Of a DNA stretch of 64,000 nucleotides, positions 60,423 to 64,000 are shown piece after piece. The stretch covers positions 1,426,001 to 1,490,000 of the forward strand of contig NZ_CP115757.1 in the NCBI RefSeq assembly GCF_027912675.1. Direction: 5' to 3'. Source of the stretch: Paracoccus sp. SCSIO 75233. GTDB taxonomy: Bacteria; Pseudomonadota; Alphaproteobacteria; Rhodobacterales; Rhodobacteraceae. Position 1 is the stretch's first letter. Every line of letters begins with the position of its first letter. The notes under the pieces are model-generated. The model was given only the letters and a program-made list of their open reading frames with translations. It ran no database searches and had not been told where the DNA came from. Position numbers and translations under genes: made by a program.

Positions 60423-60845
60423 ATGATTACCAAGACTGGTTCTGCAAAATGGCAAGGCGGGCTGAAAGACGGCAAGGGCGAGGTCTCGACCGAGTCCGGC
60501 GTGCTGTCCGCGCAGCCCTATGGTTTCGCGACCCGTTTCGAGGGGCAGCCCGGCACCAACCCCGAGGAACTGATCGGCGCAGCACATGCCGCCTGTTTCT
60601 CAATGGCGCTCTCGAAAGAGCTGGCCGAGGCGGGTGTGACCGATGTCACCATCGAAACCAGCTCCGCCATCACGCTCGACAAGGACGGCGAGGGTTTTGC
60701 GATCAAGACAGCGGCGCTGTCCTCCCATGTTTCGGGCCAGGGCGATCATGACGCGATCCGCAAGGCGGCAGAGGGCGCGAAGTCCGGTTGCCCGGTCTCG
60801 AAGCTGCTGAACGCGGATGTTACGCTCGATCTCAAAATCACATGA
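60423..60845 (+). CDS. osmC: OsmC-family peroxiredoxin
   Basis: A 140-residue OsmC-type thiol peroxidase. Redox cysteines are in AAHAACFSMALSKEL (about 51-65) and KSGCPVSKLLNADV (about 118-131), the two-Cys layout of organic hydroperoxide reductases, and GSGQGD-like SHVSGQGDHDA lies between. GGAGG sits seven bases before the ATG. Its stop overlaps the start of the transglutaminase-like gene (ATGATG), so the two are co-translated. Confidence 0.92.
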   Translation: MITKTGSAKWQGGLKDGKGEVSTESGVLSAQPYGFATRFEGQPGTNPEELIGAAHAACFSMALSKELAEAGVTDVTIETSSAITLDKDGEGFAIKTAALSSHVSGQGDHDAIRKAAEGAKSGCPVSKLLNADVTLDLKIT

Positions 60846-61687
60846 TGTATGTTAGGTACGGCTATGACATCACCATAGAAACCGAATCCGACCTGCCGAT
60901 GCTGCTGCAAATGTCGGTCCGCCCCGAACGGCAGCTCGACCTGCGCGGGACGGAGGAATTCGTGACCGACCCGGCCGTGCCGTTTTCGACCTTCGTCGAT
61001 GATTTCGGCAATTTCTGCCGCCGCCTGACCGCCCCGGCTGGTCAGTTCCGCATGCAGCAAAACGCCATCATCACCGATAGCGGCCTGCCGGAGCCGGACT
61101 TCCCGGAGGCACAGGAAATGCCGGTCGAGGCGCTGCCCGACGATGTGCTGCAATTCCTCTGGCCGTCGCGCTACTGCGATTCCGATCTGCTACTGCAACC
61201 GGCATGGGATTTGTTTGGCGAGATGACGCCCGGCTGGTCGCGGGTGGAGGCGATCATGGGCTGGGTGCATAACCACATCACATTCAACTACATGGACGCC
61301 GACGCCACCCGGACCGCGCATGACGCCTTTGAGCAGGGCAAGGGCGTCTGCCGCGATTTCGCGCATCTGGCCATCGCCATGTGCCGGGCGCTGAATATCC
61401 CGGCACGCTACGTCAACGGCCATCTGGGCGATTTCGGGGTGCCGGTGCAGCCGGACCCGATGGATTACGCGGCCTCGGTGCAGGTTTATCTGTCGGGCAG
61501 GTGGTGGAATTTCGATCCGCGCAACAACTCACGCCGGATCGGACGCCTGCCAGTCGGCTATGGGCGCGACGCCACCGATGTCGCGCTGATCTCCAGCTTC
61601 GGGACGCATCGGTTGGTGAATTTCCACGTCATCACCGAAGAGGTGGACGTCGACGGCAACCGGGTTGAGCGGGGCGATGTGTGTTGA
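60842..61687 (+). CDS. Transglutaminase-like protein lacking the usual catalytic His
   Basis: A 281-residue bacterial transglutaminase-like protein with the N-terminal beta-propeptide domain (YGYDITIETESDLPML) and a papain-like core. The nucleophile Cys170 is in GKGVCRDFAHL and the triad Asp225 in WWNFDPRNN, but at the position where HAW/HAY normally places the catalytic His, this protein reads MDYAASVQVYL with Ala210. The fold is intact and full length, so it may be inactive as an enzyme or use another residue. It is translationally coupled to osmC. Its stop codon lies inside the first unit of the 44-bp repeat array. Confidence 0.88.
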   Translation: MMYVRYGYDITIETESDLPMLLQMSVRPERQLDLRGTEEFVTDPAVPFSTFVDDFGNFCRRLTAPAGQFRMQQNAIITDSGLPEPDFPEAQEMPVEALPDDVLQFLWPSRYCDSDLLLQPAWDLFGEMTPGWSRVEAIMGWVHNHITFNYMDADATRTAHDAFEQGKGVCRDFAHLAIAMCRALNIPARYVNGHLGDFGVPVQPDPMDYAASVQVYLSGRWWNFDPRNNSRRIGRLPVGYGRDATDVALISSFGTHRLVNFHVITEEVDVDGNRVERGDVC

Positions 61688-62060
61688 AATGTGCCATTCG
61701 GGCAAAGCGGGGGATGTTGCCGGTGCGTTGAAATGTATCGTACGGGGTGATTGGTATGATTTTATCGGTGCGTTAAAACGCACCCTACGGCGAGGCCGGT
61801 AATCCCGATGGCGTGTCGAAATGTATCGTACGGGGGATCGGGATGATCTCATCGATGCGTTAAAACGCACCCTACGGGGCAATGGGATGGTTTCATTGGG
61901 CGTTGAAATGTACCGAACGGGCGGATCGGGATGGTTTCATTGGTACGTTGAAACGCACCCTACGGCTAAACCGGCGATCCCGACGGTGCGTTGAAACGCA
62001 CCCTACGGCGAAATCACGAAACCCGTTGGATGCGCCCGTAGGGTGCGCTTTAGCGCACCG
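61681..62060. repeat. Array of nine palindromic repeat units with a period of about 44 bp
   Basis: Nine units start near 61681, 61721, 61766, 61810, 61853, 61898, 61942, 61984 and, inverted, 62036. There are two versions. Type B contains GCGTTAAAACGCACC and CCTACGG and forms a perfect hairpin (GGTGCGTT/AACGCACC). Type A reads GTTGAAATGTATCGTACGG, where C-to-T changes destroy the hairpin. Units 2-7 alternate A-B-A-B-A-B, giving an 88-bp higher-order repeat. The 16-19 base segments between units are also alike (ATCGGGATGGTTTCATT-like after most units, CCGGCGATCCCGA-like after some B units), so it is not a CRISPR array. It fills the gap between two convergent genes; 62061-62149 holds only degenerate CAAACG-containing sequence. 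Confidence 0.92.
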
Positions 62061-62149
62061 CCAAACGCCATCGCACCATCAAACGTCATTTCACCCGCCA
62101 AACGTGAACGCCCCATCCCCCGTCAACGCCCGAAAACCACCCCATCCCC

Positions 62150-64000
62150 TCAATACACCACACTCCCCGTCCCCGCCGGCAAGGCCCCATAGGGCAACCA
62201 CACCGTTTTCCACTGCACCGCATGGTCAAGGAATGCCCGCCCCTGCCCGTCCGCCGCACTCCAATCACGATTGGCAAACGACCACACCGGCTTGAGATTG
62301 CCGACCGATGCGGCCTCCACCTCCGCGACACCCTTTGCACCGCAGAACCAGAGCGCCGCGACATCGTCATGCGCCGCCAGAACCGCCGCCAGATCATCCT
62401 TCGGGCCGGAGACGATATTGACCACGCCCCCCGGCAGATCCGAGGTGTCGAAGACCTGCGCCAGATCGAAGGCCGCGACCGGATCGTCCTGCGCCGGGAC
62501 CGCCACGACCGCATTGCCCATGACAATCGCAGGCGCGATCAGGCTGATGAGGCCCAGCAGCGGCGCATCATTGGGACAGACGATCCCCATCACTCCGAAT
62601 GGCTGCGGGATCACATTGACCAGATAATTCGGCTTGGTCTGAACATTCTGCCCGTCGAATTTATCCGCCCAGCCGGCATAGTAGAACAATCTGCGGATCG
62701 CCGCATCCACAGCGTCAGCGCCGTGTTTCTTGGCCATCTCCTCCCGCCGAAGCGACAGGTTTTCCGCCACGAAATACAGCACCTGCGCGCGCCCATGCCC
62801 GCCCATCGATGCCCATTTGCCCGCCTTCTTCGCCGCCTCGACGGCGTTGCGGATATCCTTGCGATTGCCCAGCGGGACCAGATCGCCCGAGGCCGCGCGA
62901 TAGCTTGCCCCGCCATCGGGCCGCTTCTGCGCGCCGCCGATATAGAGCTTTTCGGTCCGGTCAATCGCCTTGCCCGTCGCCGTGCCATCCACAACCGGCT
63001 TGAGCGGCTTCGGCGCCTTTTCCTTCGTCGCCTCCACCTTCGGGCCGGTCAGATAATCCAGCAGGCCGACACGCCCGCCCTCACGGCCATAGCCTGATTC
63101 GCGCATCCCGCCGAAGGGCGCTGCGGCATCGAACATATTCGCACCGTTGATCCAGACCACGCCGGATTTCACTTGTGCGGCCAGATCGGTCGCCACCGTC
63201 GCGCTTTCGGAGAAGATCTGCGCGGCAAGACCGTAATGGCTGTTATTGGCCAGACTGATCGCCTCATCCGCCGTACGGTACGTGGTCAGTGTCGCAATCG
63301 GGCCAAAAATTTCCTCGCTCCATGACGGGTTGGCGGGGGAGACGGCGCGCAGATAGCCGGGCGCGACAAAGCAGCCCTCCGCTGCATCGCCGCCCACAAG
63401 CTCTGCCCCGGCATCGACGGCCTGACGGCACAGCCCGACAATCCGGTCCTTCTGAACAGGATGCACGATTGCGCCGATATCGGTCGACTTGTCGAGCGGC
63501 GAACCGAGACACAGATTTGCCATCCGGCGCTGCAGCAGCGCCTCGAACCGCGCGGCCACGGCCTCCGCCACCAGAATGCGCGACCCCGCACAGCAGACCT
63601 GCCCCTGATTGAACCAGATCGAGTCGACCACGCCTTCGACCGCCGCATCCAGATCGGCATCCGGCATCACGATGAACGGCGATTTGCCGCCCAGTTCCAG
63701 CGTCAGCCGCTTGCCGGTCCCGGCGGTCGCGGCGCGGATGGCGCGCCCGACTTCGGTCGAGCCGGTGAAGGCGATCTTGTCGACATCCGCCGCGACCAGC
63801 GCCGCGCCGGTCTCCCCGTCGCCGGTCACGATATTGACCACGCCACGCGGCAGCCCGACCTCCTGACATATCTCGGCAAAGGCAAGCGCCGTCAGCGGCG
63901 TATACTCCGCCGGTTTCAGCACCACGGTGTTGCCCGCCGCAATCGCGGGTGCGATCTTCCACGCCAGCATCAACAGCGGGAAATTCCACGGGATGATCTG
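62150..64000 (-). CDS. Two-domain aldehyde dehydrogenase family protein (5' end beyond the window)
   Basis: The visible 617 codons run to the right edge, so the N-terminus is missing. The first domain (about 63000-64000) is an active-looking aldehyde dehydrogenase with IIPWNFPLLMLAWK, FTGSTEVGRAIR, the Glu in LELGGKSPF and the catalytic Cys in GQVCCAGSRI. A Lys/Pro linker follows, then a second aldehyde-dehydrogenase-like domain (about 62150-62960; YIGGAQKRPDGG, YYAGWADKFDGQ, NVIPQPFGVMGI). This second domain lacks the ELGGK Glu segment and has no Cys at the active-site position (only FCGAKG), so it is probably structural. Such proteins of about 780 residues are known in Rhodobacterales next to deoxynucleoside genes; the substrate is unknown. 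Confidence 0.9.
   Translation of the reverse strand, partial: QIIPWNFPLLMLAWKIAPAIAAGNTVVLKPAEYTPLTALAFAEICQEVGLPRGVVNIVTGDGETGAALVAADVDKIAFTGSTEVGRAIRAATAGTGKRLTLELGGKSPFIVMPDADLDAAVEGVVDSIWFNQGQVCCAGSRILVAEAVAARFEALLQRRMANLCLGSPLDKSTDIGAIVHPVQKDRIVGLCRQAVDAGAELVGGDAAEGCFVAPGYLRAVSPANPSWSEEIFGPIATLTTYRTADEAISLANNSHYGLAAQIFSESATVATDLAAQVKSGVVWINGANMFDAAAPFGGMRESGYGREGGRVGLLDYLTGPKVEATKEKAPKPLKPVVDGTATGKAIDRTEKLYIGGAQKRPDGGASYRAASGDLVPLGNRKDIRNAVEAAKKAGKWASMGGHGRAQVLYFVAENLSLRREEMAKKHGADAVDAAIRRLFYYAGWADKFDGQNVQTKPNYLVNVIPQPFGVMGIVCPNDAPLLGLISLIAPAIVMGNAVVAVPAQDDPVAAFDLAQVFDTSDLPGGVVNIVSGPKDDLAAVLAAHDDVAALWFCGAKGVAEVEAASVGNLKPVWSFANRDWSAADGQGRAFLDHAVQWKTVWLPYGALPAGTGSVVY

Follow-up and report, generated by a model that had tools for sequence, protein, structure and literature searches.

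In the window analyzed here, i.e., the whole 64,000-nucleotide (nt) stretch of DNA from Paracoccus sp. SCSIO 75233, a transglutaminase-like gene and an aldehyde dehydrogenase (ALDH) gene are convergently arranged around a gap of 462 nt (61688-62149), where nine 24-nt repeat units are found spaced 43-51 bp apart. Our results confirm that this array is a real feature, since a control with the reversed consensus gave no match with up to 5 mismatches in 238 kb searched on both strands (4 matches appeared at 6 mismatches), and it constitutes a locally multiplied cluster of repetitive extragenic palindromes (REPs), small mobile repeats of an ordinary and known kind, not a new system. Along the plus strand, units of two types follow each other in the order A-A-B-A-B-A-B-B, and then an inverted B; eight units are therefore direct (plus strand) and the last one is inverted (minus strand). 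Type A units are decayed REPs devoid of the terminal GTAG tag. The features of the locus are as follows:

60788..61687, plus strand: transglutaminase-like gene (open reading frame, ORF; Pfam PF01841, E 1.3e-20)
61678..61701, plus strand: unit A0, decayed REP with ATTC in place of the tag complement CTAC (differs from the A consensus by 6 mismatches and keeps the phase, at 44 bp)
61722..61745, plus strand: unit A1, decayed REP, tag complement GTAC
61767..61790, plus strand: unit B1, intact REP bearing its GTAG tag on the minus strand
61810..61833, plus strand: unit A2, decayed REP, tag complement GTAC
61854..61877, plus strand: unit B2, tagged REP with one stem change
61897..61920, plus strand: unit A3, decayed REP, tag complement GAAC
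61942..61965, plus strand: unit B3, tagged REP with one stem change
61985..62008, plus strand: unit B4, tagged REP, intact, the left member of a tags-inward pair
62036..62059, minus strand: intact tagged REP in inverted orientation, the right member of this tags-inward pair
62150..63973, minus strand: ALDH gene, convergent, frame open to the window end (ORF; Pfam PF00171, E 2.7e-145)

Anatomy and folding of the units

An initial annotation of this DNA had described nine units of two kinds, an A-B alternation for three rounds, the inversion of the last unit (62036, minus strand) and an overlap of the first one with the transglutaminase stop codon. All four points were borne out, with an extra A before the three rounds and an extra B after them, and with the TGA codon (61685-61687) lying inside A0, the weakest unit of the array, yet in phase. 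On the plus strand, the intact direct unit reads GGTGCGTTRAAACGCACC-CTACGG, and on the minus strand it reads GTAG followed by GGTGCGYTTYARCGCACC (also by GGTGCGTTTYAACGCACC), which is the layout of a GTAG-tagged REP; in the inverted unit, a C-G pair replaces the innermost T-A pair of the direct unit. GTAG beside a palindrome of 20-40 nt is present in the direct B units and in the inverted unit, and absent from the 4 A units. The three C-to-T changes and one C-to-G change ascribed to type A by the initial annotation occur as such in A1 and A2, where the latter change abolishes the CTAC (i.e., GTAG) motif; this motif is also missing from A0 and A3, and thus all 4 A units are tagless. As a source of the type A changes, strand-specific cytosine deamination was considered and rejected, as no bias was detected (G>A 29 vs C>T 25 among 55 distinct units).

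The perfect hairpin proposed for type B holds for the minus strand, which carries the GTAG, where all 5 B units pair 7 of 7 positions (two of them with one G-U), whereas on the plus strand only 3 of the 5 do so and the other two have one mismatch. Likewise, the claim that type A no longer folds was nearly right: on the minus strand, the REP hairpin is absent from all four A units, and the single exception is A1, which makes it on the plus strand through three G-U pairs (folding energy of -3.8 vs -10.2 kcal/mol for B1).

REPs and associated transposases in the genome and its relatives

The genome comprises 3.89 Mb in 11 contigs, and clusters were taken from 238 kb of DNA around matches (6% of the genome, window included), picked from match lists. 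Units were accepted with up to 6 mismatches, and the clusters do not include 3 weak matches (4-6 mismatches) that stand alone; gene calls came from a codon-usage script rather than from annotation, and the left neighbour called for the cluster at 104698 is wrong (stretch end). As the clusters of one genome share history, p-values are to be taken as guides only. The 38 clusters thus identified comprise 11 singles, 8 pairs and 19 larger groups of at least three units; they hold 126 units in all, 108 of which carry an exact GTAG tag. The exact 22-nt REP has 87 copies in this genome, and the likeness of the B core to the widespread GTAGGGTGCG...CGCACC palindromes, pointed out by the initial annotation, was upheld, with 102 genome matches to GTAGGGTGCG-N1-8-CGCACC and none to the reversed control. 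The 100 matches listed are all on contig 1 (C1), one site being counted on both strands, and two further exact REP sites lie on this contig at 3186863 and 3218106. The same annotation had assumed that such repeats are usually single or paired, which is not so here, with half of the clusters (19/38) holding three or more units; it had also reasoned that a genome-wide scatter of B units would mark an ordinary REP cluster, and the scatter is present, which by that reasoning makes the array ordinary, though expanded. Regarding location, 31/38 clusters are no more than 50 nt away from the 3' end of a called gene and 10/38 are near a 5' end, one (1/38) is inside a called gene, and convergent gaps are enriched (15/36 gaps with a cluster vs 11/140 without, p 5e-6). 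Among the matches listed, no exact REP falls on the ten smaller contigs (C2-C11, 0.63 Mb), and the 730-kb tract at C1 624.6-1354.3 kb holds one match, a variant beside a transposase gene described below (RAYT2).

Other arrays of the genome have their own periods (43, 48, 58, 59 and 62 bp) and similar spacers, which suggests that local tandem copying is common in it, and the array at 489937 alternates tagged and tagless units. Among neighbour pairs up to 70 bp apart, 49 are head-to-tail, 21 tags-inward and 7 tags-outward. Of the clusters with three or more units, 15/19 display net tags-inward polarity, 4 none and 0 the reverse; 14 of these 15 are simple runs with a single tags-inward junction, and the 15th has the same net polarity. 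Polarity is mixed among the 8 two-unit clusters, of which 3 have their tags inward, 4 have them outward and 1 is head-to-tail (Fisher p 0.005 vs larger clusters). As a separate observation, the non-coding DNA flanking REPs is strand-skewed according to REP orientation, being G/T-rich on the arm side when read in unit orientation; the skew is higher on the left than on the right in 13/14 tags-inward clusters where both sides could be measured (p 0.0004), near zero in gaps without REPs, and weaker in relatives (25/35 units, mean 0.14, p 0.002).

The advice of the initial annotation to look for a REP-associated tyrosine transposase (RAYT) proved fruitful. A profile of 118 enterobacterial RAYTs, run against 3356 ORF pieces of the fetched DNA, recovered at least two genes, both confirmed with NF047646 (E 1.2e-50 and 9e-55); this count is a lower bound, NF047646 having been applied to profile matches, and further RAYTs are possible:

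C1:2698820-2699293: RAYT1, 157 aa, found with the profile and NF047646
C1:1061553-1062101, minus strand: RAYT2, found with the profile and NF047646

RAYT1 is flanked on both sides by the REP of the array, with a tags-inward pair upstream and two REPs downstream, and its stop codon TAG forms part of a GTAG. RAYT2 adjoins a variant REP, GTAGGGTGCGTGTTCACACGCACC (region C1 about 1061360-1062101), of which at least three exact genome copies exist among the matches listed. Their identities to E. coli RayT are 44% and 46%, respectively, and both display HLH (the HUH motif) as well as a tyrosine that the alignment places at E. coli Y115 (numbered by hand), the residue changed in the catalytic mutant Y115F (PMC8266576). 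An earlier reading of these repeats as orphan REPs without RAYT, based on PF01797 searches that gave only IS200-like pieces in this genome, was discarded once the RAYT profile found two genes. PF01797 fails to detect E. coli RayT at E 0.001; such searches therefore cannot rule RAYTs in or out, and surveys based on this family can miss them. The coding sequence of one IS200-like transposase (C1:1938542-1938888) runs over two frames, the break being near the same profile position as in another genome, G008, and the split in both genomes would be either an inherited frameshift or a programmed one.

The exact 22-nt REP was found in 7/198 genomes of the family, 7/125 of the genus, 1/385 of the class and 2/397 of the phylum, where each count includes this genome and the samples overlap in part. 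All 13 other REP-bearing genomes belong to the same family, with 19 (G174), 11 (G270), 5, 5, 3, 3, 2 and 2 exact copies, and 1 copy in each of the remaining five, vs 87 here. At the 43 listed REP places of these genomes, all of which were judged for adjacency, a RAYT adjoins a REP in the two richest relatives, G270 (68% identical to RAYT1) and G174 (42%). The G174 RAYT has neither the initial histidine of the HUH motif nor the Y115-aligned tyrosine, despite the 19 exact REPs of its genome. In G184, four intact REPs lie at steps of 166-173 bp, with a weak inverted unit after two of them, as in a longer tandem repeat containing the REP. Concerning the locus itself, no REP-like unit with up to 5 mismatches was found in 24 relatives' loci. 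The nearest named relatives are Paracoccus (3 loci: P. isoporae, Paracoccus sp. S1E-3 and P. sulfuroxidans), and the ALDH gene is kept next to the transglutaminase gene in 2/8 relatives' loci tested, with orthologous gaps of 30 nt in P. isoporae and 27 nt in Paracoccus sp. S1E-3, both without the array. The S1E-3 gap contains a short GC hairpin and a T run on the ALDH side, which by eye resembles an intrinsic terminator.

Origin and growth of the array

Taken together, these findings make it very probable that the array is a GTAG-tagged REP cluster which was seeded by a RAYT and multiplied locally, with the type A units as decayed passengers. This is supported by the GTAG beside a perfect hairpin and by the exact tag in most units of the genome; by the two RAYT genes, one with the REP of the array on both sides; by the RAYTs beside REPs in the two relatives with most copies; by the two relatives that keep the gene pair around short gaps; and by the private periods of other arrays and the closeness of most clusters to gene 3' ends. 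Most likely, a RAYT of this genome placed an inverted tags-inward REP pair in a convergent gap of about 30 nt via single-stranded DNA, and the left member of the pair would then have multiplied locally, as single units of about 44 nt and double units of about 88 nt. As suggested by the spacing and by the other arrays, this multiplication may have occurred by replication slippage or unequal recombination at hairpins, and local expansion as a recombination by-product, put forward by the initial annotation, would fit the data. Type A units would be copies in which both the GTAG tag and the stem have been lost and which were carried along with the copying of the A-B pair. According to PMC8266576, the E. 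coli enzyme cuts single-stranded REP and not inverted REP, GTAG being crucial; type A units should thus no longer serve as transposase substrates, although this is an extrapolation, because the weight of GTAG varies between enzyme groups (PMC8266576). Any influence on the flanking genes would be incidental and exerted at their 3' ends; what the sequence reveals of it is the stop codon of the left gene inside the first unit.

The 88-bp double unit proposed by the initial annotation is well supported for the cores (92, 88 and 81% identity between the three rounds) and more weakly for the spacers (53, 68 and 53%); these identities suggest an older, mosaic array, and the spacer after B2 resembles, by eye, the kind that follows A units. 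Two points weigh against the interpretation above. Better conservation of cores than of spacers is not predicted by plain duplication plus neutral drift, whereas selection or unit conversion would predict it. Moreover, no RAYT lies beside a REP at the places fetched from the other 11 relatives (up to 5 exact copies each), and the proposed insertion, cleavage and growth of the array are read from sequence.

One alternative has the array retained for a function at the RNA level, acting as a bidirectional terminator or 3'-end stabilizer of both convergent genes. The preference of clusters for gene 3' ends and convergent gaps agrees with it, as does the fold of the whole array, more stable than shuffled sequences on both strands (z -4.1 and -5.1); the terminator-like hairpin of the S1E-3 gap would mean that a terminator may have been replaced, and termination and mRNA stabilization are listed as hypothesised REP roles in the abstract of PMC3733652. 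Nonetheless, location at 3' ends is equally predicted by insertion tolerance, and the bidirectional terminator and small-RNA source proposed by the initial annotation gained no support: there is no terminator-like site on either strand at 61550-62250, Rfam gave no family match, and in the stem-pairing test G-U pairs show no preference for the transcribed strand (18 vs 16, or 12 vs 14 excluding this array), with stem changes broken on both strands in 15 further cases. We thus regard an RNA role as improbable. Even less credible is that type A represents a second functional REP class, the A-B pair itself being the copied element; the three A-B rounds, the alternation at 489937 and the partial conservation of A cores between rounds speak for it, but no A unit is tagged, the one that folds does so on the strand opposite to the tag, the A-specific half was not found elsewhere in the genome among the blastn matches listed, and GTAG is crucial for cleavage in E. 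coli. As for an array of the CRISPR (clustered regularly interspaced short palindromic repeats) type, its probability is close to nil: 24-nt repeats, spacers of 19-27 nt and even distances are reminiscent of one, but near-identical repeats with unrelated spacers at one locus are not what is found here, given that the spacers are alike, the repeats diverged, and units also occur singly, in both directions and chromosome-wide; the genes found in association with them are RAYTs, no search for cas genes having been made.

Returning to the RAYT-seeded cluster, the polarity of the larger clusters raises a possible, though rather doubtful, rule of growth: REP arrays may grow one way, from a tags-facing inverted pair as seed, with new copies joining on the outer side, opposite to the tags. 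If true, one-sided growth would point to tag-directed copying, e.g., by a RAYT, rather than to plain slippage. This polarity is the less expected part of our results; it is not stated in the portions of the REP literature covered, and it rests on one genome whose clusters share history. In sum, a striking-looking repeat proves to be a REP cluster whose genome also encodes two RAYTs, providing a Paracoccus example, and the genome is a good case for the study of REP array growth, with arrays of differing age and period, intact RAYT frames and shared polarity.

Comparison with known REP systems

In the literature searched, no paper pairs the whole word RAYT with Paracoccus, and, judged by title, none of the papers listed in a looser word-start search for both terms, of those combining 'extragenic palindrom' with Paracoccus, or of the listed ones containing the string GTAGGGTGCG concerned REPs or these repeats. 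GTAG-tagged REPs are hairpins with a terminal GTAG present in many copies, found as singles, dimers and clusters with tandem reiteration, downstream of genes and in convergent gaps, with a RAYT nearby (Di Nocera et al., 2013; PMC3733652). The Paracoccus REPs resemble them in layout, copy number, tandem clusters, location and RAYT proximity, a likeness drawn from that paper's main text, in which no name containing 'rhodob' occurs; unlike in that account, the commonest neighbour pair in the Paracoccus genome is head-to-tail. The RayT/TnpAREP system of E. coli (PMC8266576) likewise combines REPs with a RAYT. In its bacterial interspersed mosaic elements (BIMEs), however, REPs stand in inverse orientation, and an alternating orientation is not what the array displays, with eight direct units and one inverted. 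In REPINs (REP doublets forming hairpins), the moving unit is an inverted REP pair; the array is closed by an inverted pair and 15/19 larger clusters have net tags-inward polarity, and movement as a pair may have taken place here.

In Pseudomonas fluorescens SBW25, GI and GIII REPs take turns in tandem arrays that reach 12 units (Bertels and Rainey, 2011; PMC3116915), and as in Paracoccus, two REP types alternate in tandem at regular spacing. Conversely, each SBW25 type is a named REP group, the spacings being 112 and 72 bp, whereas A is a decayed copy in Paracoccus; furthermore, the largest SBW25 arrays occupy two places and are almost duplicates of one another, and each Paracoccus array has its own spacers. 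The closest printed sequence encountered is the Haemophilus influenzae REP GTAGGGTGGGCTTYAGCCCACC (Nunvar et al., 2010; PMC2817692, Table 1), identical to the array in tag, stem length and loop; the inverted unit is one complementary base pair away from it and the direct B units two pairs away, in a host of a different class, a likeness that concerns the REP sequences.
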